This document shows positions 17,400 to 64,000 of a DNA stretch of 64,000 bases, piece by piece. Position 1 is the stretch's first letter, and every line of letters begins with the position of its first letter. The position numbers and the translations under genes were made by a program. The notes under the pieces are model-generated. The model ran no database searches and was not told the origin of the DNA. It was given only the letters and a program-made list of their open reading frames with translations. The DNA is from Urechis unicinctus. Lineage: Eukaryota; Annelida; Polychaeta; Xenopneusta; Urechidae. The stretch lies in contig CM067357.1 in the NCBI GenBank assembly GCA_034190875.2, forward strand, positions 24,597,878 to 24,661,877, written 5' to 3'.

Positions 17400-18740
17400 G
17401 GAGTATGCGTATTGTGGAACACATAACTTCGAGCCTCTTTAAGTAGCTTGCTTAAGAGCTTGCCAATCCATAAGATTTCGTTGTGGATGACATTGCTTTC
17501 GCTTGTCAATTGAATGGCCTACGTCTCTCAACGGAATATGTGAAGAAGGATGATTTAATCAGTAATATAATTATAATAACATTTATTTCGTACGCATGGT
17601 ACAGATATTCTAGGTCGATCAAGTCCAAGTGCTATAATTGTACAAAGAGTAATGTGCAAATAAAGTTAGAGTAGAACATTGATATCTTCCCGCTGCAAAC
17701 TGTTAATATCATCACATTCACAGGCTGCACAAAGCTCATTTCGCGCGCATGACAATTAAAAATCAACTAATTGCTTTTTGATGCGTTGAATATAACATTA
17801 TGTTCTTCACCAAACTTTTCTCATGTTTTAAGCATGGACTTAGCAGCAGTCAAAGAAGAAGCAATGAGAGTGGCGTTGTCAGCATAGTTCATTGCGCCAG
17901 CATAACGGTGACTAACATGGCACCCGATTATCCTTTTAGAGAGCCGTGACAATAGTGCGTCGTTATATAGACCTATTAAAATTGTCAGAGAAGCTATTGT
18001 TCCACTTAACTCTTAACGTTTGCTGCGTATACATGTTTGGTAGGAGTTTAGCAATAATAGCACATATACCATGCTCTTGTAATAAACTAAACAATTTCAT
18101 AAAACTTGATCAAATGCTTTGGAAGAGTCCAATAATATGACATAACAGGGCGAGCTGTGACAAACATAACCATCTATGATTTCCTGTAATACAAAAGTGC
18201 ACTGTGTTTTGGAGTGGGACGTTTTAAATACAAAGTATATACAACTCAATTTCATTACATCACTTCGATAATCAATAATCACAATATCTAACGGTTTCAC
18301 TATTACACTACTTAGTGCTGTTGATCGATAATTATCACTATTGTTCATCTGTTCGTAGGAATAGGCGCAAGCGTAGATGTTAGCATACCACGTGGTGTAT
18401 GTGCATGATGTCTTTGAGAAAGCCAGTGGTGGGACACCCATTCTTCGACCAGAGTCGACACAAAAATATTGATTTTGCTTACAGCTGATTGACCTGTTCT
18501 CTCCAGCCCGGTGTTTACGTTTCCTATTCTAAGGATTACACTGCACAGCCTCTCTGACACACGCATTAATGATGTCATTATAGTGATGGTCTTAGCAATT
18601 AATCTTCCCATATAATTGCATCCTTAGAGACATTCAGATCAAGTAACAACTTTCTCAATTTACGTGTATAACTATCAATATTCACTTTCATTCCATTGGG
18701 GTCTGTTTGTCTATTAATAACTCATTGTTCACCATTTGAC
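17400..18740 (-). mobile_element. Decayed LINE reverse transcriptase, copy 1
   Basis: Broken non-LTR retrotransposon read on the minus strand. In order it shows an endonuclease-RT linker with TPGWREQVNQL then LWSKNGCPTTGF (about 18400-18540), a frame change into MLTSTLAPIPTNR, then NNSDNYRSTALSS (about 18325). RT finger and palm pieces with QCTFVLQEIIDGY and LLDSSKAFDQVL follow (18097-18260), then MYTQQTLRVKWNNSFSDNF (about 18000). The catalytic box reads YADN instead of YADD near 17880, and about 28 bases covering the usual GxLSPxLF box are missing relative to copy 2. Stops and frameshifts mean it cannot make protein. The 5' endonuclease part and the true 3' end are not recognisable. The clade is not assigned. 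Similar proteins are common in molluscs, cnidarians and lancelets. Confidence 0.85.
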
Positions 18741-49829: not shown

Positions 49830-50447
49830 TGGGACAGCGAAAGGGACAACGAAATCATATCACGCATCGGTAAAACCAGTGCCAACTTTGGACGTCTACA
49901 GCATAACTATGGTCGGATCGTGGCATCTACCGTGCTGCTGTGCTATCCTTGCTGCGAGTCGTAGACGTGGTACCGGCAGCACGCAGGGAAGTTGGGCCAA
50001 TTCCACCTTCGATGCCTAAGAAAGATCCGTGGCATCTCGTGGAAGGACCATGTACCGGACACATAGGTACTGGAGAGGTGTAGCATCACTGGTATTGAGG
50101 CCCTCCTTATGAAAAATCAGCTCCGCTGGTCATGTCATGTGGTCTGTGGCTACGTCGAGCCGGAGGATGGCCGCCGCCTCCTGGGCGTCAAGTACAAGAG
50201 GTACAGAGACGTCCTAAACATCGGCAATGTTACCTGGAAGCAACATGCCAGGCACAGAGCTTTGTGGCGAATGATCTGGCACGACGGCCTGGCGTACTTT
50301 GAGCAACACCGCACTGACCGGAAGAAAGAACGGCGGCGAGCACTACACGCAGACGACGACTTTGCCTGCCCTGACTTTCAGAGAAGATATCGGTCCAGGA
50401 ACGGCCTCGACATTCATTGCATGCATATTCGTCCTTATCATTACTAG
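49830..50447 (+). mobile_element. 3' end of a second LINE, decayed
   Basis: C-terminal part of a non-LTR retrotransposon ORF2, of a different family from the duplicated one. In order the plus strand reads IGKTSANFGRL (about 49868), then KLGQFHLRCLRKIRGISWKD (about 49990), then TGIEALLMKNQLRWSCHVV (from about 50090). KYKRYRDVLNIGN follows, then TWKQHARHRALWRMIWHDG and YFEQHRTDRKKERRRA. A degenerate C2H2 finger (FACPDFQRRYRSRNGLDIHC) comes just before the stop at 50447. In-frame stops replace residues near 49960 and 50064, so it is inactive. No RT palm is seen upstream, consistent with 5' truncation. It is noticeably richer in G+C than its flanks. Confidence 0.88.
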
Positions 50448-53400
50448 GAGGCAGCAAATAAGGGATCCGTTGAACCTAAAGGCTCAGTCCATCACCGTCA
50501 TCAGATCCGATAATTTGCTCATTTTATTGAATGCCGAATCCCAATTACAAGCGCAGATGCCGTATTATGAAAGGATTAGAATAAGCTAGTAAATTAGATC
50601 ATCATCTGCACTAAAATGAATAAGGGCTCGTGTTAATCAGAACCTTATATTGGATTGTGCATATTAATACCAATGCTCTGTGTGCTGATTGTCTGTTTGC
50701 TTGCTATATCAAAAAGACACGGTACTCATTGGCCATAAATGCCGAGATTCCTGACTTGGTGTTCATGCGTCCGTTCTTTGTTTTCAAGTGTGTTTGCCTA
50801 AAGAGCGCAGTTATTCACGCATCGTTTTGCCTTGAATAAGTTTTGCGATGCTGTTATATCTTTCTTCCCTATCATACAATTTAAACCTTATAATGCGATT
50901 AGTAGTACGCACGCGTCTAGTTAATTATTGCGAATATTCGTCAGTTAACCACATACATATTGATAGTGAAGGCCTAATTATTCCTAGGAAACAATTTCTT
51001 TTCTACAATTAATAAACAAGTATCATGAATTGTCTAGCAAAATAGAATGTGATTGATAGTGAGTCGCTACAAAAGTTAGTTTCATGCCAGCACTACAAAA
51101 AAGAAATATCAACAGCAGTTACGGTTAATGGCTTAAAAAAGTCTTTTAAAAACCTCTCGAGAGCTTTCACATCTGCCCTACTAGGGAAATGTTTAACATG
51201 CTCTGAAAGGAAACAAACTTTAATCTTGTACTGCTCAAACCTAGTTGAATACACCAACATAGATAATAGCTTTATATACCATCATATCAACCATAGCGAG
51301 GAATAACATAAGATCATAAACATGGCAGTCGATGTACTCGGCTGGAAAATGACCGAAAATCACCACAAATCAGGTGATTATTCTACAATTTCAATTGATA
51401 AAACCTATTATCAGCAATATAGCGATTAAAGGGAATCGGTATTATCGTTCATTGATTGAGAAAATTATTAATCTTACTTAGGTATCGATCAATTAAGTCA
51501 AAGCCTGCTTCTTGGCATTAATTATAGTTGAGAAGAGTTTCCATGCACTTGAGTATCACACTGCTCTGTAGTGCATAATATATTGTGCTGCTTATTGGTA
51601 CAACTCAAAATTGCATGGAACCATGAGCATAGAAATGTTATATTGATGCTATATTTAATGTTTGTTAGCAAATATAACAAACGTCTACTTTAATGTGACA
51701 TATTTAAAGATTAGGAAACAAAAATATTGATTGACACGCATATTTCTATCTTAATTTTCTATGCACATACACTCGTTCAATGTGTATCAGGTAATTATTG
51801 TAGGCTTAAATTCTAGCATTCAACGTAGAGTTATGCATTTCATTGATGTGTGAATGAATATATACCAATATATGAAAAATCGGCGTACATTCAGAAAATA
51901 TCTATGTTCAGCAGTAAATGGCTTTTCAACTGATAGAAAGTATCAAAACGAAAAAGCCGCAATAGCTAAACGAAGAATTCATATTTATCAAATAGGTGGC
52001 AAGACCTTGTTAAGCCTAATGCCGTACATGTCCTCTTGAAGCTATTAACGGCATAGATAAGAACAAACGACACCCACAAGAAATGTCCGTTTGGCAGCTT
52101 ATCTCTAATGAGTGAGTGTGGTGCTAGATACGTAGGGTAAAGGGTTATATGAATCCTCTCAATTTCAGTTGCATGGCAAAACTATACTAGGTTCCAGTAA
52201 CCAGAGGGAATAACAAAACGCCGTTGCAATTTTTCCCTTTGTGGGTCATGTACCATCATTTAGTCTTGGTAAATCGAAATCCGATAGCGCTCGATTACGT
52301 TACATGCAAATTATCATGTGGTAAGACTGTTTCATACTCTACTGGAGCGTCTCCCTAAATGCAATTGATCGGCTGCTGTACTTTTTAAGAGATCGCTTAT
52401 TCAGCAGAGCTAACCGACGTATAGATGGTAACAAAATAAACTACTCACAATACTGATATTATAAGCGACAGTTGTGCGTTAGTATCAACAATGTGTTTAC
52501 ATTTGTTTAATTTATTAAAGCACTGTCAATACCATATACGATATCTAAGTCAATAAGCATTCTTTATGGTTGATTGAATAGCGGAATCGTCTTGTGTCAG
52601 GAAATATATTACTCTGTCACATGTCAAAAGATTGAAAATATCAATGAGATGCTTCATTTGTGATGAACTTGGATCCGCTATTGACCGTAGCGTTCAATGT
52701 TTATACACATTTGATGTTTTGTTATTTCGTCGCAAAGTACAAAGCAAGCCATCAAGCTGTATGTTCTGCAGCCAATATGACCAGACTAATGAGAGATGTA
52801 ATGATGCCGCGAATTTTGGCTGCTGCTATCATTGCTTATTGCGTACATATAGCTGTTATTACCACGTGTAAGAGGTTGTGCGCATAGTAGCACGCATAGT
52901 ACGCTTGAAGTAACAATCAAAATAATCAATCAAAAGTTTTGATCGTAAGGCAACTCGTTGGCGATAATCATTGCCCTATCACACTACGCAGTTTGCGTTG
53001 TCGCCCATTAGTTGTCGATGCCCAATCAAAATACAATTGTATTCAAGAATATTGCTTTATTTGAGTTGTATTTTTGCGGCTACAATCCATTCAGTTTGCT
53101 TAATCGTCGATTAGTTGTCGACTGCAGGCCTCAGCAAAATATGCTGTTGACAATACAATACGTTAGTTAAAACATTTAATAGCAATACGTAACGGAGATA
53201 AGATCGTACAAAGAATACAATATATGCCGAATAATTGCACCATGTGGCAGAATTATATCGGAGTTTGATGATAAGATCGTCTGGGTGTACAAGATTTAAT
53301 AAATACAATGCTATCATCGCATCTCAGCAGAACTCATAACGTTTGAAATCGAACATAAGGCAATGAAGGGATAGTTTGGTTATGGAATCGAGTGTCCAAC

Positions 53401-53578
53401 TATGATTTCAAGGCCATAGCCCCTATATCTGTTTGTATCCAAAATAATTTCGTCCGCTAGAAAGTACCCCGTAAAATATGATCTAAGGAAGTTGATACGT
53501 CATTAATTTTATAAAATGGTCATGTCCAGTATGACCGTGATATATATATGCTTCAATGTTTGTACAATAGACTTGTCA
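50448..53578. other. No supported gene
   Basis: Frames at 50630-50839, 51049-51306 and 52632-52871 (plus) were read. The last is cysteine-rich but overlaps an equally long frame in another phase. No motif supports a call. I could not recognise a poly(A) or short tandem tail for the LINE end. Confidence 0.5.
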
Positions 53579-53962
53579 TTAAGGTAGTAGCATATTGCAC
53601 AAAATATACTTCCATTGGTTTGCGCCTTTGCCGCTCGTCATGACAAGACAAGCTGCCGGCGATTGGTTTGTTGACACCGCATTTAATTTAACATTATGAG
53701 TGCGGACATTGTGAGCAACAAAGAGCCGCAGCATAGGTTTGGAAGGATGGTAGAGCAAGACCCATAGACACAGTGTGCGTGATGAAAGAAAAAAGTTTGC
53801 CTTCTGTGAACAATTGACTGTGCCGTAAACAGAGTGACAAAAAGATACATATTTGGACAGAGCTCGACGGTAAACAGCTTGAGAGGCAGGTGCGAGGCCC
53901 TTAGCTATAAACTTGCCTATGGATATTTGAGTTGCGGACAGAATAAATAATAATACCAGCAT
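53579..53962 (-). pseudogene. Tyrosine-recombinase core-binding-domain fragment
   Basis: A 127-codon frame that fits the N-terminal SAM-like core-binding domain of eukaryotic tyrosine recombinases. It has KGLAPASQAVYRRALSKYVS then FC near the start, LRLFVAHNVRTHNVKLNAVS in the middle, and GANQWKYILCNM at the end, where the family usually has a YVLRGI-like helix. The catalytic domain should follow on the minus strand but is absent, so this is a fragment. About 18 residues between the FCHSVYGTVN and LRLFVAH parts look inserted. It could derive from a DIRS-like retroelement, a Crypton or a recombinase-derived gene. The call rests on remembered family patterns. Confidence 0.45.
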
Positions 53963-54300
53963 TACCCAAGTTATCTCAAATCTTCCTCAATTCCGGCGAC
54001 TTGGTTTAAATTTCCTCCAGAGGTAATATATCTTAAAAACACAAAATCCCGCGACTTGCATTTATACTATTTCCATTTAAAATATGCAGATATTTTTTGC
54101 CTTCGATACATTATTTTTCGGTTCATACCTCGAAAATAATGTATTGTGTGCATTTCAATAGTTAGTTATTCTGTGCTGGTCAAGATAATCAACTCTGCTC
54201 TGTCCGCGTTGTCATGAAATAATGCGATATACATTTGTAAATATCTACACATAATGATTAACCTCGGATAAAACAGCCGTGTCAAATACCTTATCATCAA

Positions 54301-54301: not shown

Positions 54302-54376
<75 letters not shown>
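54302..54376. repeat. (AT)n microsatellite
   Basis: About 75 bases of uninterrupted TA dinucleotide. Tyr-Ile frames on both strands come from it. Confidence 0.98.
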
Positions 54377-54378
<2 letters not shown>

Positions 54379-54499
54379 CTTATTTTGCATTTGCGGGCTC
54401 AAATTATGTGATATCGCGGATGCCAAATTTTAACATCTGCCTTGTATGGCTTTATTTAGTTATCTTCATTCAAAACTTATTTCCGACGATTTTAAATTT

Positions 54500-54675
54500 T
54501 TTGATCCAAAATGGTTGTACCAAAAAGGTCATGACGGTTTTGTCATGCAAAAAAAAAACCATTTTGGCTTTTTTTATATAATCGACCATTTTGGCCTTTT
54601 TTATAATCGACCATATTATAAAACCAACCATTTTGGCCATTTTATATAATCAACCATTTTGACCATATTGTAAAA
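54500..54675 (+). repeat. CCATTTTGGC minisatellite (degenerate)
   Basis: Five imperfect units built on ataatcgaccattttggcct, at about 54556, 54584, 54606, 54624 and 54650. Two opening phrases (ccaaaatggttgtacc, aaaggtcatgac) resemble the inverted motif. Unit spacing varies from 18 to 28 bp. Confidence 0.75.
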
Positions 54676-54684
54676 CCAACACAT

Positions 54685-54826
54685 ACCCCGTCGTACAAGG
54701 TATTATGCGAATGTATAACCCGTCGTACAGATTGAAGCTGAAAAACATACCCCGTCGTACAAGTATGAGGCCCAAAAACCCGTCGTAAAAAGTCGAGAGG
54801 CCGAAAGAGCATAACCCGTCGCGCGG
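54685..54826 (+). repeat. CCCGTCGTAC minisatellite, about 32 bp
   Basis: Five cccgtcgtac-type boxes at 54687, 54719, 54751, 54779 and 54815, spaced 32, 32, 28 and 36 bp. The GC-rich box is conserved (cccgtcgtaa and cccgtcgcgc in the last two) while the spacer DNA between boxes is not. Confidence 0.8.
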
Positions 54827-54857
54827 CACATATATACTACCTCTATACACTTAGGTG

Positions 54858-54872
54858 CCCCCCCCCCCCCCC
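54858..54872 (+). repeat. Poly(C) run, 15 bases
   Basis: Fifteen consecutive C residues closing the run of arrays that starts with the AT block at 54302. Confidence 0.95.
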
Positions 54873-55386
54873 GGCGATTAAGTATGCAACGAGTTAGATA
54901 CAATTTGTATCATCCTTATTGAAAAGAACCCAAAAGAGAAGTCCAATTGATTGAGTAAAGCAGTGACTGTCATAACGCATGCAGATTGCTGGGCACACTG
55001 CTCATTAGGCAAAGGAACTTCGCCTCCCATGGTGGTTTTTTATAACATAAGCATACCAATATTGATGGTATTATCATAAGACCAGATTGGTTGGAAATAC
55101 AAATTATATAACAGATCATTTTGGTGTGCCTATTAGAAAATTGTGATATATTTACATAAAAATACCCTTTTAATGAGAAAATTCTGCCGGTTCTCAACCA
55201 ATCACGACAATGTTTAACATGATTACCGTTGCGATTTATATTGAGCTGTAATTATTTCTCACTTTTGCACCTAATGGTTGTTTATAAAACCCCCACCTGA
55301 TTAAATCGTTTTGTGTTAACAAAGATTACGTAATCGATAGGTTATCAAGCAAAGTAACTTCAATTAAAACAAAGAATGAATATGAG
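54873..55386. other. No supported gene; 3' flank of recombinase gene
   Basis: No exon recognised on either strand. It lies downstream of the minus-strand recombinase-like gene. Confidence 0.5.
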
Positions 55387-55406
55387 AAAAAAAAACATGC
55401 TTTAAT
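55387..55406 (-). terminator. Possible poly(A) signal of the recombinase-like gene
   Basis: On the minus strand an ATTAAA hexamer (55401-55406) lies about 120 bases after the stop codon at 55524. It is closely followed by a run of nine T residues (about 55387-55395), as expected for a cleavage signal with a U-rich downstream element. There is no transcript evidence. Confidence 0.35.
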
Positions 55407-55414
55407 CAACAACC

Positions 55415-55538
55415 ATTTCATGCTTGATAATCATTTAAAGTTAACATTTTATGCTTGATAATCATTTAAAGTTAACATTTCATGCTTGATAATCATTTAA
55501 AGTTAACATTTCATGCTTGATAATCATTCAAAGTTAAG
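55415..55538 (-). repeat. 31-bp minisatellite, four units
   Basis: Four units of 31 bp, each atttcatgcttgataatcat followed by ttaaagttaac, with anchor tgcttgataatc at 55421, 55452, 55483 and 55514. The last unit on the plus strand (first on the minus strand) contains the final codons and the TGA stop of the recombinase-like gene. The remaining units form its 3' UTR. Confidence 0.95.
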
Positions 55539-57750
55539 GGATTTCCTTGTCATTGACTGGGCTTTCCGCTGCTCGTTCATTATTTTGGTAGGAACTTTGT
55601 TGTACGGATAGGTTATGCCGTTCTCTTGGATGATGCGCATAATCTCTTGTTTTCCTGGGGGACAGAGTTTAAAAACACCCGACATTAATCAACATGTCCG
55701 CTTGATAATACAGTTAACATTAAACCAAAAATTCACGCATTAACAGCTTTCAGTCATATAACTGTTACCAGGCAGTTTGCGTTGGGGACTTGGAAGCTTG
55801 ATATACTGTCCAAAAGCCTTGTGGATGATGCTTGTCTGGGCAGAATCCCATTTGCAGCGCTTTTCCATTGGGCCCTCATCACAACTGTTATCTTCATAAG
55901 GTGCAACTAGAGCTGATTCTGCAAAAACATTTCCTACCAATTACTTAAATATATTCTAAACCCAAACTTGAAACACCAATCAATAGCTCACATATATGAT
56001 AGCATAAAAAAAAATTGTCACTGACCATTCAATTGGAAATTGGCAGGATCATAAACTTCAAGTGAATCTGGCCATACCACACAAAGGAAACACATATATA
56101 TAATTTATCCTGCCGCCCGACACTTGAATTATGCATTGGCATCCATACAACGCCATATATTCAAGTATTATTTTTTTTTAGTTCTACCACCAGTCACAAC
56201 AAAGCATTATCTATATAAACAGAGCACAGAAAGACTAATTGCACTCTGAGAAGTGCCATTCATCGTCTCAATCAAGACAGAATATTCACCAGTTTTGCCG
56301 ACCATTTGTGCCGTCGTGTCCAAGTTGTTGAGGAACGCGCCAACTCGAGACACAGCAAGAGCGGGCAGCGGCCTCTGGTAGGTACCGCGGTTGACCTCGG
56401 ACGAATGCCCCATGTGTTTGTAAAACAACTCGCGATCTTGTTGGGAGAAGTCCTGTTGAGCGTATAATGTAGAGATGCGAGCTCTTTGGTTGGTAGCATT
56501 TACCAGACTGCAGTCAATGCCTGCTTTTTTCATCACTGCTTCCGTGGCGCTCCATCCAGCCACATGCCGTGAGGATCCAATATTGGGGAAAATGAATGTG
56601 TTTTCCTCCAATATATTTGCGCCACTTCTCCTTTCATTGTCGGCAAGTAAATCCATTGCATTGAAGCAATCTTTTGGGATGATGATGCTTACCAAGTGAT
56701 TACCCTTACCCGTACAGTAGGTTACGTCCAATTCAGAGGAATGGTAATCGTCATCGGTTTGCCATTTTCTTCGTTCAGTCCATTGTTTGATGGTCATTCT
56801 ACAAGGCTCCCCACCTCGCCTTGCATTGAAAAGTGTGAGCCTACTACAAGTCAGATTCCTTAGCTCAACAAATTCGGAAGTGGCAAATTCATCGATAGTG
56901 ATTCCTGAAAGGTATGTGATGCGATCCACTGTGTGGTTTCTGAGTTTCACCATAACTTCTTCCGGGGGAGTCCTCTCGGGCAGCCTTAAGCGTTCTTGTC
57001 TTGATTTGTTAATCAGATATTTACAATCACTGAACATCAGGTTCTGGTGGTGCTTGAGCAGGCTTTTAAAATGCCCAAGCTCCTCTACCTGTTCCCTTCC
57101 CTGTTCCCCAGAAAGCATAAGGGCCTCTCCCTGTATTATTTCAGCTGATCGCATCAGTAGATAATATAATGAATTCTTCAATCCATATTTGAGTGTTTTG
57201 TCATCTGATGTGAGGCTAGTGATTGCTTCTCTAAGCGTTGTCCAGTTGCCGCGGTGGAACATGTCTCCAGCATCCTTCATTTCAGAGTCATCTTGCTTTT
57301 GAACTTCTAAGTACAGACTTGCAAGCATGCGCATATCAGCCATAACTGATTTGCGTACTTCTTCTTGTTTATCCACTTTGGATCGATCCTTTGCCCAAAG
57401 ATGCTTGCCTATCATTTTTATTGTGCTGTCTGTTCTGCAACAGTCTCCAACGGCATTGCTGTGGAAGCTACTTAAAATCTCTTTAAAGTCATTGCCTTCC
57501 TTTGAGTTGATGACCATTGCCGAAATTGGTTTTGGCCTCATCTCCTCCTTGCATTGGCGCCTGTGCCGATAGAAGTATAGCTTGCTGTACGCCCCTTTGC
57601 ACGATGAGCAATGGACAGTTTCGGCCTTAGTGGAACTCCGTTTGATGCGTTCAAAACAAGTCGGTGTCTTCGTCTTGTTTTGTTCAACAATTCCAGCATT
57701 GCGCAATTTTGCGAATGCCCTCCGTTCATCTATTTTGGATAACTCAGCCC
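55524..57750 (-). CDS. Zinc-finger tyrosine-recombinase-like protein, 5' incomplete
   Basis: Proposed exons are 57750-56290, 55918-55769 and 55654-55524. The junctions are phase 1 with GT/AG borders (CTG|GTGAAT, gcag|AAT, CCTG|GTAACA, cccag|GAA), and together they give about 580 residues. The first exon opens at ctgag|GGG, so an upstream exon is missing. Numbering from the TTG codon at 57706, a C2HC zinc finger spans Cys33, Cys36, His48 and Cys52, followed by a charged helical region. A tyrosine-recombinase domain then shows Arg297 (ARRGGEP), Lys334 (CTGKGNH), Arg408 (TNQRARIST), His434 and Tyr443 (HMGHSSEVNRGTYQRP). The spacing is canonical (His to Tyr 9), but Thr405 sits where the HxxR box has His. 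Exons 2-3 form a Myb/SANT-like tail (EKRCKWDSAQTSIIHKAFG, then PGKQEIMRIIQENG). Such enzymes cut and rejoin DNA through the tyrosine. Here it may be a Crypton-like element or a domesticated host gene. Confidence 0.8.
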
Positions 57751-58841
57751 CTCAGATTTTAATGTGTAATTATGTCCACATTTAACTATAACATGCAAAT
57801 GTAAAGCTTTAACTTGGTTATTTGTGGCCTCCTTGTAGAAATTGTATGCTAAGAAATCCTCATTTAAAGTGATTATCTGTGATACAGATGGTCAAAATGT
57901 TGACTTTGTGCTCTGGACTTTTTCATAACCCCTCTAAATGCTTCTATTGGGAAATTGCCACTCACTAATAGCCATTGATATCACAAAACCACCAGCAGTG
58001 TTATTTTGCTATTCCCCACTCATAGCCGCTCTCGCGCTCTGAGTGTCACGAGCGCGTATGCGCCCATCTAGTCCGTTAAGACCTCCAAACTATTCAGATA
58101 CCCCCGTGACCCAGTTAACTGTAGCGCCTTAAGTTCCCAAACCTCTTCCGCATCCTACTCCAACGCAAGAATGCTCTTCTGTCTTTACCCACCAGGCGAC
58201 CATCATCCTGCACGGTGGTAACTGTCCCGAGAAATCTTTATTGCATTCTTTTCCCTTAAAAGGTTTTAATTGTCAGTTTCTTGTCCGGTAGTGACAAAAC
58301 CAACTGTCATGGAAAAGTCTGACAAAACTTTCATGGTTAGAAAACCCCAACAGGATATGCATTATGTCATGTTGCGGTTTGTCAGGTTGGAAGTAGCATA
58401 ATTTGGTGGAGGATCGTTTTGAACTGGTTGTGTCATGTGGAAAGATAAATGTTCTATTCCCCAGATAGATTCCTATCGTTTACGTAGTACGAATATCTCC
58501 TCGAATAACACCCGTTTTGTCGCATTCTGAGTATCATAACAGAGTTCTACCGCATTTGTTAAAAGATACGGGATGGAGAGAAGAGATGAGTTTCCCAACC
58601 AATGCAGGTCAAATAGTTTATTGGGATGTTCCAATAAGCAGGGTTGATAGATTCAACGGTATGACATAAATTATTATTTAAAAAGTAATTTAAGCATGCC
58701 AACAGTTTCACTCACACACGCCAAATGGCTGTGAATCGTACAAGTGACTGAAACAGTCCAACTGATTTTGTAAATCAGATAAATTCCATATCGACGAACT
58801 TAAAATACGTGACTTGCCAACCTTTGACAAAGTCGCAATAT
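57751..58841. other. Probable upstream intron, no exon identified
   Basis: The acceptor at 57751 implies at least one further 5' exon on the minus strand. I could not identify it. A 40-codon minus-strand frame (58115-58240) reads TVQDDGRLVGKDRRAFLRWS and looks protein-like, but it has a stop after GNLRRYS and no clear donor in phase. CpG is locally more frequent around 58030-58070. Confidence 0.4.
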
Positions 58842-58904
58842 GAAATCTCCCAAGGACGCGGACCGTTGCCATGGCGCCGAAGCTATATGGCGTTGGGAGA
58901 TTTC
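58842..58904. repeat. 12-bp perfect inverted repeat
   Basis: gaaatctcccaa (58842-58853) and its exact reverse complement ttgggagatttc (58893-58904), separated by 39 bases. This gives a potential hairpin or small foldback. Confidence 0.85.
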
Positions 58905-59017
58905 TCAATGAAAATAAGCAGAATACATGGTGTCTTTAAATTGACCGTACCGCTTTATTCTTGGTTCTACAGAAGAGATAATCATACGGATGTGCTGAGG
59001 AGAGTCTCCTTTGTGTG

Positions 59018-59133
59018 GATCCGAGTGATAATCGTAAAGTTATTTGAGTTTCGGTGAATTATCCGGTTTTGAAGCGGCAAAATCGCGATTTAAAACATTT
59101 AACTCGAAAATCTGATCGATTATCACTCGGATC
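59018..59133. repeat. Foldback with 17-bp perfect arms
   Basis: gatccgagtgataatcg (59018-59034) is the exact reverse complement of cgattatcactcggatc (59117-59133). On the same axis tatttgagtt (59041-59050) pairs 8 of 10 with aactcgaaaa (59101-59110). The whole 116-bp unit is therefore an imperfect palindrome, possibly a small MITE remnant. No flanking duplication was found. Confidence 0.85.
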
Positions 59134-59510
59134 GACATATCACTTTCATTCTTCTACATTTTGGTATAATTTATATAGCAATCGTATGGAGAATATATAG
59201 GTACGGCCCTTTTTCCTTAGGTACATAAATCACGACACAACTTTTATGGCCCCGAAAAAATACCACTTTTCGTCATTTTCGTCGGCGATTAGCACCACAT
59301 TAAATACCAGCAAGAAAAACGAAAATTGTACCAAATGAAAAGCTATTCTTCATTAATAATATATTAAAAGAACAAAATGTATCATTGCGTCATTTGTTGT
59401 CAATGGTCATTTACATGAGACTACCAAACGGCCTAAAAACGGCCTTGTCCAAACGAGATCGGCGCCGCGTTTGTCCGCCCTACTAATGTTGCAGCACGGA
59501 CGATTCCATG
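59134..59510. other. No supported gene
   Basis: Sequence downstream (minus strand) of the cysteine-rich candidate exon. It would be 3' UTR if that exon is real. No AATAAA was found on the minus strand close to the stop. Confidence 0.4.
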
Positions 59511-59815
59511 TCAAAAATGCTTGTAGGGCACGTATTTATTCTCTGATTCGTGGATAATCAAATTACCATCATTTATGTTATTGCTGTAACTATTATACAT
59601 ATCGATTGCCTTGGGCAGCTTCATGTTATTTAACCACTCTGGACACTGTAATCTGTCTGTCAACGATGTTGGACAACAATCCTCGTCCCTTGAATCGGGA
59701 GAGTCCAAACAGCTGTCATTAGTAATCGCCGTGTGACACAGCGACAATCTTGCGGCCCTGTCGGGTTGACAGGCTTCTGTGAAGTTCTGAGCGGCTATAT
59801 TTACGCAGCATGAAC
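59511..59815 (-). CDS. Candidate 3'-terminal exon, cysteine-rich
   Basis: A good acceptor (cctccacctctacag| on the minus strand) opens a phase-1 frame of about 101 codons to a TGA at 59511. It carries eight cysteines, including two CC pairs: SCCVNIAAQNFTEAC, then LC, SC, DCC and QC. A hydrophilic tail (NNMKLPKAIDMYN, ending VPYKHF) follows. The cysteine pattern suggests a secreted or extracellular domain, but I do not recognise the family. No partner exon upstream was identified. The polypyrimidine tract and open frame are what support it. Confidence 0.4.
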
Positions 59816-60262
59816 CTGTAGAGGTGGAGGCAGCATCACGGAGCGTTAAGAATCCAGTCTTCGCTCTTATATTATACGTTTTTAATGATTTATTTTCGTA
59901 TGGTTAAATATTAACGGGAATCATGCAAACCAGCCGTATAGTTTCAGGTCGAACAGTAATGTCTTGTAGGGCAGTAGGGCTAGGCAACAGGGCACTTATC
60001 AAAGTATGTTCCTGTCATATTATGTCGTGTCCAAATGCATATATTCCTGCATATATTCACAATATGCTTCATCCAGCGTCACACTGACCTCAAACTGATT
60101 CATTTTATATTCTTTATTACATGTTTTATACCTTTATTGGACATTGAATTAACTTTGTGAATTTCCCTGAATCTCATTTCTCTATGTGAATGATATAAAT
60201 CCCCTCAGGACACTTTGAATAAAACATGGATTAAACAATCTTTAAGTTTTAAATATATTGCC
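59816..60262. other. No supported gene; AATAAA on both strands
   Basis: AATAAA occurs on the plus strand at 60218-60223, while the minus strand has one at 60263-60268. Cleavage sites would fall within a few tens of bases of each other. I see no plus-strand ORF that could end here. Confidence 0.4.
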
Positions 60263-60769
60263 TTTATTCAGTTAGCTACATAATTACAAGTAGTTATAAA
60301 ATAAAATAAATACATCTGCATCTGCAGGCAATGTGCTGAAGGATCTGTCAAGGTCAGGAATAGGTAGACAATGAATTTGTTTTGCTGATGATTAAACTTT
60401 GATTGTAGTTCATTTGCTTATCTAGGGTCACCTAAACTCTACCAGACATGTATCCACAATATAAGCATTCAGAGATGATTTAGCAAAAGAAATGGACCTC
60501 AATTGACTGAATGTATTGACCTCATAAGGATCAGTGATCAGGAAATCAAGCAAATAATTGAGGGCATTAGAACAGATAAATTTGAAAATGATCAGCAAGA
60601 AATACCACATCAGCATCTTATGTTGCACTAGCAGTAATATACTTTTAAGAGTCTTGGAGGGTTTCCATCTGGACACAATTAGTGAGTCCACAACAGCTTG
60701 CCTGTACGATTCAGCAAAAGATGATTCTCCTGCTGTGCACCAGCTATAGTTGCACATTCTGTTACACAC
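60263..60769 (-). CDS. Candidate 3'-terminal exon with AATAAA
   Basis: The minus strand shows an acceptor-like ttttatgtgtgtaacag| at about 60770. A 113-codon frame follows, with CNYSWCTAGESSFAESYRQ at its start and a hydrophobic LMWYFLLIIFKFICSNAL segment in the middle that could be a membrane helix. The stop is at 60428, and AATAAA lies about 160 bases after it at 60263-60268. The arrangement fits a last exon with a short 3' UTR. I do not recognise the protein and found no upstream exon; a chance ORF remains possible. Confidence 0.3.
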
Positions 60770-61029
60770 ATAAAATTAACTTGTCAAACTGTCTATCAGT
60801 CTTATATCATAAGAAATAAAGGAAGTCTATGTAATACATTACACAACATTAATTCTTGCCAACCTGATTAGGTTGATCATCAATACACATGTCACATGGA
60901 TCAATCTCTTGTTATTAAGTACAGGAAGTAAAAACTAATACTCTCTCATGTTGATTCTGTGACAAAACATTCACCAGATGTTCAGATTAAGTCTACAGTT
61001 CAGTCTTCAGCAACAGGGCTGGAAATTAA
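60770..61029. other. No supported feature
   Basis: Short unique stretch before the hairpin. Nothing recognised. Confidence 0.5.
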
Positions 61030-61080
61030 CTAAAATGGCCACCCGTCCTGACCTGTCCCGATGACGGGTGGCCATTTTAG
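61030..61080. repeat. Hairpin with 18-bp perfect arms, TTAA flanks
   Basis: ctaaaatggccacccgtc (61030-61047) is exactly complementary to gacgggtggccattttag (61063-61080) across a 15-base loop. TTAA lies just outside on both sides (61026-61029 and 61084-61087). An RNA from either strand would form a very stable stem. It may be a minimal foldback element or a structured RNA or terminator-like site. Confidence 0.92.
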
Positions 61081-61159
61081 ATGTTAACCGGCCTCAAGAA
61101 ACTTTACCCCTTCAAACAAAAAAGATGCCATGTTAGGCGAACCCTAGTTTGGTTACATA

Positions 61160-61390
61160 CTTGGATGGTGATAAGAACCCCAAGTCAGTGTCACGATTAG
61201 TTGTTGATAAGAACCCTAGGTCAGTGACATACTGGGATGGTGATAAGAACCCCAGGTCAGTGTCACGATGAGTTGGTGATAAGTACCCCAGGTCAGTGAC
61301 ATACTGGGCTGGTGATAAGAACCCCAGGTCAGTGTCACGATGGACTGGTAATAAAGAGAAACCCAGGTCAGTGTCATGCTGGGCTGGTGA
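61160..61390. repeat. 36-bp minisatellite with alternating units
   Basis: Six units start at about 61169, 61205, 61241, 61277, 61313 and 61349. All carry tgataagaaccccaggtcag. The second half alternates between tgtcacgatgagttgg and tgacatactgggatgg, giving a 72-bp higher-order period. The last unit is slightly longer. The minus-strand frame (MSLTWG-type repeat) is a by-product. Confidence 0.93.
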
Positions 61391-61739
61391 TGAAGAGTTG
61401 ATATGAATTGCAGATAAATACAGAGCAGATTAGTGTACATCAATTTGACACTGTACACAGGTGCATACATCATAACTGCAGGACCATCAATTAGGACCAG
61501 GTGGAGCTTAACAGTCTTCCTGGGTAAACAGAACCTCTGATAAAAATTCTTCTACTTAAACCGACTGATGACCCAAACTCACACACAACCAATACAGATA
61601 ATACTCATTGTTTCGGTCATTTTTGTCATTCTGATGGTTTTATGACAATTAGACATAACATGTCTTTTTAAGCCCCAGTGATTGATATATCTCAACAGGA
61701 TATAATAAAAAGAGAAGCCAAAAACATTTGTAAACAGTA
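61391..61739. other. Unique spacer between two satellite arrays
   Basis: About 350 bases with no repeat unit and no convincing ORF, separating the 36-bp array from the 17-bp array. Confidence 0.6.
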
Positions 61740-64000
61740 GTGAAACCAAAACATTAATGAAGCCACAACATTGATGAAGCCACAGCATTGACGAAGCCAC
61801 AACACTGGTGAAGCCACAAAATTGGTGAAGTCACAATATTAGTGAAGTCACAACACTGTTGCAGCCACAACATTGGTAAAGCCAAAATATTGATGAAGCC
61901 ACAACAGTGGTGAAGCCACAATATTGGTGAAGCCACAACATTGGTGAAGCCACAGTTTTGATGAAGCCACAGTATTGGTGAAGCCACAATAATGGTAAAG
62001 CCACAACACTTGTGAAGCCACAACATTGGTGATGCCACAGTGTTTGTGAAGCCACAATATTGGTGAAGTCACAATATTGATGAAGCCACAATATCATTGA
62101 ATCCACAACACTGGTGAAGCTGCAACGTTGGTGAAGCCACAACAATGTGGAAGCCCATTACACTGATGAAGCCACAACACAGGTGAAGCCACAACATTGG
62201 TGAAGCCACAGTATTGGTGAAGCCACATATTGATGAAGCCACAATATTGGTGAAGCCACAATATTGGTGAAGCCACAACATTGGCGAAGCCACAGTATTG
62301 GTGAAGCCGGAATATTGGTGAAGTCATAATATTGATAAAGCCACAATATAATTCAATCCACAACTTTGGTGAAGCGGCAACAATGTTGAAGCCACAACAC
62401 TGGTGAAGCCACAACATTGGTGAAGCCAAATTATTGCTGAAGCCATTACACTGATGAAGCCACAACACTGGTGAAGCCACAACATTGGTGAAGCCACAGT
62501 ATTGGAGAAGCCACAGTATTGGTGAAGTCATAATATTGATAAAGCCACAATATAATTCAATCCACAACTTTGGTGAAGCGGCAACAATGTTGAAGCCACA
62601 ACACTGGTGAAGCCACAACATTGGTGAAGCCAAATTATTGCTGAAGCCATTACACTGATGAAGCCATAACACTGGTGAAGCCACAACAATGATGAAGCCA
62701 AAATATTGATGAAGAAGCCACAGTATTGGTGAAGCCACAGTATTGGTGAAGCCACAACATTGGTGAAGCCACAGTATTGGTGAAGCCAGAATATTGGTGA
62801 AGTCATAATATTGATGAAGCCACAATATATTGGTGAATCCACAAATTTGGTGAAGCGGCAACAATGTTGAAGGCACAACACTGGTGAAGCCACAACATTG
62901 TGAAGCCAAATTATTGCTGAAGCCATTACATTGATGAAGCCACAACATTGGTGAAGCCACAGTATTGATGAAGCCACTTCATATTGATGAAGCACAATAT
63001 TGGTGAAGCCACAGTATTGGTGAAGCCAAAATTGGTGAAGCCACAGTATTGGTGAAGCCACAATATTGGTGAAGCCACAATATTGATGAAGCCCAACAAT
63101 TGGTGAATCCACAACATTGGTTGTGAGCCCAAAATATTGGTGAAGCCACAGTATTGGTGAAGCTACAACATAGGTGAAAACACAACACTGGTGAAGATAC
63201 CACAGTATTGGTGAAGCCCAAAAATTGGTAAAGCCAAAACATTGATGAAGCCACAACATTAGTGTAGCCACAGTATTGGTGAAGCTACAGTATTGGTGAA
63301 ACCGCAACATTGGTGAAGCAACAGTCTTGTTGAAGCCACAATATTGGTGAAGTCATAATATTGATGAAGCCACAATTAAATTCAATCCAAAGCACAGGTG
63401 AAGCCGCAACAATGTTGAAGCCACAACACTGGTGAACCACAACAATGTTGAATCCAAAATATTGATGAAGCAACAGTATTAATGAAGCCATAGTATTGGT
63501 GAAGCCACAACACTGGTGAAACCACCACAATGTAGAAGCCAAAATATTGTGAGCCACAATATTGATGAAGCCACAGTATTGGTGAAGCTACAACATTGGT
63601 GAAACCACCACAATGTAGAAGCCAAAATATTGATGAAGCCACAGTATTAGTGAAGCTACAACATTGGTGAAAGCACAACACTGGTGAAGCCACAAAATTG
63701 GTGAAGCCACAATCTTGGTGATGCCAAAATATTGGTAAAGCCGGAACACTGGTGAAGCCACAACACTGGTGAAGCCACAACAATGATGAAGCCAAAATAT
63801 TGATGAAGCCACAGTATTGGTGAAGCTACGACATTGGTGAAAACACAACACTGGTGAAGCCACTTCATTGTTGATACCACAGTATTGGCGAAGCCAAAAA
63901 AATGGTAAAGCCACAACACTGTTGAAGCCGCAACATTGGTGAAGCCAAAATATTGATGAAGCCACAACACTGGGGAAGTCACAACATTTGGTGAAGCCAA
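61740..64000. repeat. 17-bp minisatellite array, continues past window
   Basis: More than 2.2 kb of imperfect gaagccacaacattggt units (about 130), with variants such as cagtatt and caatatt in the variable core. Because 17 is not a multiple of 3, 51 bases give a 17-residue protein period, seen on the minus strand as CGFTNVVASPILWLHQY. All three minus frames are stop-poor and give ORFs up to 288 codons. These are artefacts, with frame slips wherever a unit has an indel. A 204-bp higher-order repeat (12 units) is visible from the caactttggtgaagcggcaa block at 62361 and 62565. The array is cut by the window end. Confidence 0.97.

Follow-up and report, generated by a model that had tools for sequence, protein, structure and literature searches.

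A probable (TA)n-inserting DNA transposon family with its own tyrosine recombinase in the Urechis unicinctus genome

Some CryptonV families are described as inserting specifically into microsatellites (PMC8869645, citing Kapitonov and Jurka 2012). For CryptonA and CryptonI, the passages of PMC3212892 that treat these groups describe proteins with no C-terminal domain and elements in which terminal repeats were not found, and inverted termini are undescribed there for animal Cryptons. In the same text, Kojima and Jurka give two inverted repeats of 11-13 bp flanking a segment of 6-8 bp as the typical arrangement for tyrosine recombinases (YRs), and report the proposal that Cryptons move as circles (PMC3212892). 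Outside the Cryptons, the YRs of nimaviruses associated with telomere repeats keep five of seven key residues, according to the section of PMC10871703 on these viruses. Here we describe a YR gene in a 64,000-nucleotide stretch of the U. unicinctus genome (hereafter the window), and our data suggest that it belongs to a family of DNA transposons with many close copies, which is probably mobilised by this recombinase and inserts into (TA)n.

A stop-to-stop frame of 514 amino acids on the minus strand (window 57751-56207) is open throughout, and three further exons follow it (Table 1). The donor of the main exon lies at 56290 (G/GTGAAT), all introns are GT/AG and all junctions are in phase 1, in agreement with the spliced gene proposed in the preliminary description. 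Allowing up to four mismatches, the six junction contexts are present in 26-30 of the 30 loci L001-L030 (window locus counted), a few of which carry an altered splice site, for example one TT instead of GT at donor 1. In other subfamilies of the gene, represented by loci L069-L072, the homologues of exons 3 and 4 are split at the identical LPG/K point, and a counterpart of the micro-exon was not recognised. The acceptor near 57752 is weak-looking, neither tblastn nor a scan for the finger pattern found a 5′ exon upstream of the gene, and the upstream open frame given in Table 1 had zero matches in Pfam. The C2HC finger that had been noticed from the sequence is unchanged in three subfamilies. 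The C-terminal tail, first labelled Myb/SANT-like, is likewise conserved over the three subfamilies; Pfam lends the label no support, returning BESS alone (E 1.2) and no Myb/SANT model. The gene end overlaps, at the stop codon, a 31-bp tandem repeat of four copies (window 55414-55537) that is retained in many other copies.

Table 1. Positions in the window of the element, its gene and the adjoining microsatellite
Feature	Position	Strand	Remarks
Mobile element copy, part within the window	54377-64000	-	Extends 3.57 kb beyond the window, to about L035:3568; total length about 13.2 kb
(TA)36.5 microsatellite	54304-54376	.	Next to the gene-3′ (low-coordinate) end and presumably the target; other copies likewise have (TA)n at this edge
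Low-coordinate end	54377-54680	.	Cluster of ACCATTTTGG-like motifs; outermost ~57 bp of other copies missing
17/34-bp minisatellite	61733-64000	.	Within the element, extends to L035:216; length varies between copies
Main exon	56290-57751	-	C2HC finger (C48 C51 H63 C67) and tyrosine-recombinase domain (R312 K349 T420xxR423 H449 Y458)
42-nt micro-exon	56026-56067	-	Phase 1, GT/AG; junctions retained in most of 30 loci
Third exon	55769-55918	-	First half of the conserved C-terminal domain; L069-L072 homologues 42-48% identical
Last exon, with stop	55524-55654	-	Second half of the C-terminal domain; L069-L072 homologues 44-55% identical
130-aa open frame	59511-59903	-	Upstream of the gene; retained in L031-L034 (121-130 aa); a candidate for an upstream exon

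The catalytic residues first read as R297, K334, T405, R408, H434 and Y443 (each 15 below the numbering of Table 1) do fall in canonical order and at canonical spacing, and the set is invariant in three subfamilies. Its sole replacement is that of the HxxR His by Thr420. This Thr is common to subfamilies at 53-58% identity and is therefore not a decay of the window copy but a family-wide substitution. We compared a profile made from three subfamily members of the element's protein with one of 40 XerD-type recombinases (41 long matches picked from 80 loci, plus XerD, giving 42, minus two with stops), which served as the reference because XerD, Cre and lambda Int aligned poorly. The profile-profile alignment (hhalign) scored 38.5 (P 1.7e-4, HH probability 49.5%), a value that none of 100 column shuffles reached (best 25.1), with reversed columns at 16.8. 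The expected match to Xer-type profiles is thus borne out for the aligned region, the stretch with ARRGGE and TGKGNH that runs from the box-I Arg to the Lys, but not for the C-terminal part alone, which scored 21.3 against 25.2 for the best shuffle (not significant); because this part does not rise above the shuffles, TxxR, His and Tyr are assigned by motif and spacing. The window protein is therefore like the XerD/Cre-type enzymes in its box-I Arg and Lys regions, which align by profile, and in the order and spacing of R, H and Y. It is unlike them in the Thr that replaces the HxxR His and in having no PF00589 match, a model against which XerD scores 202 bits and Cre 114 bits; its YR domain was also unrecognised in PHROGs and PDB sequence searches. 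It differs as well from the CryptonA-type YRs in giving no match to PF12012 (DUF3504) at E<=10, and a genome search with that model returned four matches, all lying outside the listed places of the element. By profile homology and residue pattern the window gene probably encodes a tyrosine recombinase; the Thr at the HxxR position, the HH probability and the failure of Pfam, PHROGs and PDB sequence searches to recognise the domain count against this reading.

In order to find related copies, we searched the animal's own genome (1.19 Gb, 926 contigs) with the protein. Scoring the best 84 of 805 first-look candidates gave at least 91 matches at no fewer than 83 distinct places, 77 of them of the window subfamily and 6 of subfamilies at 54-58% identity. 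Among the matches listed, five, the window copy included, extend from residue 1 to at least 511 at 99-100% identity and are stop-free, and the main exons of eight loci are 98.7-99.9% identical in pairwise comparison. Of 13 loci aligned, 7 carry a frame-breaking deletion of 25 bp close to residue 121; on recounting, it was present in 9 of 9 copies placed in the deletion class and in 0 of the 13 remaining loci. L008 carries an extra 4 bp that restores the frame, and L009 a 3-bp loss unrelated to the deletion. Many of the listed matches begin at residue 122, as the deletion predicts, so that copies with the broken frame have themselves multiplied, presumably with the recombinase supplied in trans. 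An alternative N-terminus for the "122-514" class was considered and rejected, the deletion being the cause. The more distant loci L069/L070 (57-58% amino acid identity to the window protein) and L071/L072 (53%) have the identical catalytic set, Thr included, together with additional finger-like motifs towards the N-terminus; for L071 a single zf-C2H2 match was obtained (E 6.8e-5), at 23.5 bits where the cut-off is 25.2.

The number of copies also bears on the suggestion that the gene is a domesticated host recombinase. The open main exon and the conserved splice sites agree with it, as does a dN/dS below 1 in the sister pairs L069/L070 (0.0054/0.0298, about 0.18) and L071/L072 (0.0036/0.0083, about 0.44), both based on few changes. 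However, the gene is not single-copy, some copies have lost catalytic residues (R312Q in L003, H449R in L009), and change among the 12 full-frame copies is neutral, the nonsynonymous fraction being 0.75 (63 of 84 changes) against 0.757 expected; in nine deletion copies it is 0.70 (21 of 30) against the same expectation. Together with a 13-kb unit that has ends and empty sites, described below, this makes domestication extremely improbable. It had been argued that a mobile element would lose its clean frame and splice phase, an argument that fails, since young transposon copies keep both clean frames and splice sites. Between subfamilies dN is 0.35-0.47 and dS is not computable, which we read as saturation. 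Overall, selection operates on the lineage, and none is seen on single copies of the window subfamily.

The homology between copies stops at window 54377 and at about L035:3568, delimiting the unit given in Table 1. We searched for both ends in the genome, scoring the best 40 of 878 gene-5′ candidates and the best 40 of 702 gene-3′ candidates. Of the 25 gene-3′ ends examined, 23 could be anchored (L045 and L058 could not, and L058 starts with masked letters) and 16 have a complete terminus, with TA-alternating sequence before all 16. In 13 of these 16, at least 70% of the dinucleotides in the adjacent 40 bp are TA/AT, versus 1.15% of the 40-bp stretches of the 64-kb window. TA was absent beside L043 and L052, two of the seven anchored gene-3′ ends without a complete terminus. 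At the other side, 12 gene-5′ ends were examined, 9 were anchored and 6 have a complete terminus, (TA)n following in 6 of 6; the gene-5′ end of L036 is truncated and adjoins (TA)n. A listed gene lies within 25 kb of 22 of the best 40 5′ ends, and for 10 a same-strand 3′ end is also listed, at a distance of 8.4-14.2 kb, 7 of these 10 spanning 12.4-13.9 kb; since each list contains the best 40 ends, absence from it means little. The 24-bp ends are imperfect inverted repeats (17/24, in a register picked by eye), a value matched in 5 of 200000 shuffles. Allowing up to one mismatch on either strand, we counted motifs like ACCATTTTGG 6 times in 54377-54900, 3 times in the last 0.76 kb and once in the three inner stretches covered. 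The window copy is without about 57 bp at its gene-3′ end and about 25 bp at its gene-5′ end, and with both outer termini missing it is probably immobile. It and L067 share one breakpoint close to the 5′ end (GGTGAATTGT; L035:3568 in the former), with no (TA)n beyond.

Two copies inserted into duplicated surroundings allowed a comparison with empty sites. Copy c02 (C2:68094456) sits within a host repeat, and in three of five other copies of this repeat (L159, L161 and L163) both flanks could be matched, the matched parts being separated by a TA tract and some C-rich flanking sequence; the right flank was not found in the other two (L160 and L162). Copy c19 (C8:10434438) sits within a local duplication, whose empty counterpart (L164) matches the left flank at 98.2% and the right flank at 97.0%, with (TA)n joining them; the gene-3′ end of c19 is truncated yet still abuts (TA)n. 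The many similar copies, defined ends, (TA)n target and empty sites thus favour the other suggestion of the preliminary description, a recently active Crypton-like element.

In the compared parts of the window copy and of L031-L034, L036 and L074, we did not find any frame longer than 130 amino acids outside the gene and the minisatellite. The YR gene is the only one recognised as an enzyme in the element, and a second enzyme was not seen. This bears on whether the gene could come from a YR retrotransposon (DIRS, Ngaro or PAT) or a fragment of one. Such elements carry YRs, and a genome search with PF00589 found at least 79 places (best 150 of 213 candidates scored). However, none of these, by eye, overlaps the listed places of the gene, which number at least 83, and the compared parts leave no room for an intact reverse transcriptase, so that this origin is very unlikely. 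We regard as equally unlikely that the unit is the reduced remnant of a large endogenous DNA virus with a microsatellite-specific YR, comparable to the crustacean nimaviruses. The sections of PMC10871703 on nimavirus YRs do offer parallels, since those at telomere repeats typically have a C2H2 domain and target (TAACC)n, and multi-exon YR genes are predicted in 28S-rDNA-specific relatives. Against a viral piece, the YR gene is the only long frame in the 13-kb unit and the ends of the unit are fixed. A scan of viral contigs matched two stretches, neither of them a relative.

Several other observations concern the surroundings and the genome at large. Just outside the element, a 135-aa frame on the minus strand (window 53579-53986) resembles, by eye, the SAM-like N-terminal region of a further tyrosine recombinase (LAPASQAVYRRALSKYVSFC); it is without a match in Pfam, and one frame across 52400-53990 is riddled with stops. 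Window 18097-18528 (minus strand) resembles, by eye, a LINE reverse transcriptase fragment, with RVT_1 at E 0.049, below the cut-off, and 50067-50447 (plus strand) a LINE 3′ end, without a match in Pfam. Also, a strong PF00589 match at G000:C143:1236-1722 (E 1.6e-21) is perhaps on a bacterial contaminant contig.

The main rival mechanism is a transposon with terminal inverted repeats that is mobilised by an unseen DDE transposase acting in trans (Ginger2-like or mariner-like, for instance), in which the YR would be a passenger or a resolvase. The imperfect inverted ends and the subterminal repeats are as such a transposon would have them, and nimaviruses of sesarmid crabs enter (AT/TA)n by means of a Ginger2-like enzyme, according to the part of PMC10871703 dealing with them. 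A TA duplication made by a DDE enzyme and a YR insertion within (TA)n cannot be told apart. However, outside the gene and the minisatellite the compared parts have no frame beyond 130 amino acids for such an enzyme, which may nevertheless have a source in trans, the YR is conserved across three subfamilies, and the ends match a YR core layout. Moreover, TA tracts lie downstream in three of four loci of the other subfamilies (L070-L072), the 6.5 kb read at L069 being free of TA arrays. We therefore consider movement by a DDE transposase unlikely.

Under mobilisation by the element's own recombinase, the C2HC finger and the C-terminal domain would bind the arms of the ends as well as the ACCATTTTGG-type repeats next to them, and the YR would join both element ends into a circle whose junction, arm-(TA)n-arm, would have the classic YR core layout. 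The circle could then recombine with a genomic (TA)n, the microsatellite serving as a genome-wide attachment site, and recombination within (TA)n would leave no distinct target duplication. We infer both steps because the joined ends would form inverted arms around TA, as in YR sites. The window copy could at most act in trans, because its outer ends are missing despite the open main exon. Head-to-tail clusters occur on C15, with three 5′ ends 2.75 kb apart, and on C7, with two same-strand 5′ ends 8.9 kb apart; they fit the circle model, and could be ordinary tandem duplications too. At L073 (C15:41882832-41888832) head-to-tail units of 2.75 kb are found, two whole and a third cut by the locus end, with (TA)n between them, each made of 2.0 kb of the gene-5′ end of the element and a tail of about 0.53 kb unmatched in other loci, that is, a gene-less derivative.

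By its mode of working, the element, a mobile DNA element with a YR as its sole recognised enzyme, may be filed as a variant of the Crypton kind. In how it works it may be likened to the microsatellite-specific CryptonV, also a YR DNA transposon, with (TA)n found here both beside complete ends and within empty sites, and microsatellites there; the likeness is drawn from description. The report of Kapitonov and Jurka (2012) concerns cnidarians. With CryptonA and CryptonI, as presented in PMC3212892, it shares the coding of a YR by an animal DNA transposon and the presence of non-autonomous derivatives, and it differs from that presentation in the conserved C-terminal domain, the inverted ends (17/24) and the 13-kb length. 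The YRs of telomere-repeat nimaviruses, as described in the relevant section of PMC10871703, are similar in their zinc finger, their insertion into microsatellites and their incomplete key residues; unlike the present one, they lie in large viral genomes and target (TAACC)n, by description. It is conceivable, if doubtful, that we are dealing with an undescribed lineage of YR DNA transposons unseen by Pfam, in which the protein has the layout (C2H2)-C2HC-YR-C-terminal domain, the 13-kb body includes a minisatellite, Thr replaces the HxxR His throughout and inverted arms surround a TA core.

Eukaryotic YR DNA transposons are little studied, and the ends and targets of the animal ones are often unclear. 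The many young copies in this genome provide exact ends, a simple-repeat target, empty sites and several subfamilies, and the circle-and-recombine model is therefore directly testable. They also constitute a multicopy recombinase family that is invisible to standard domain profiles and, if the lineage is indeed an undescribed one, every (TA)n microsatellite of the genome would be a potential attachment site.
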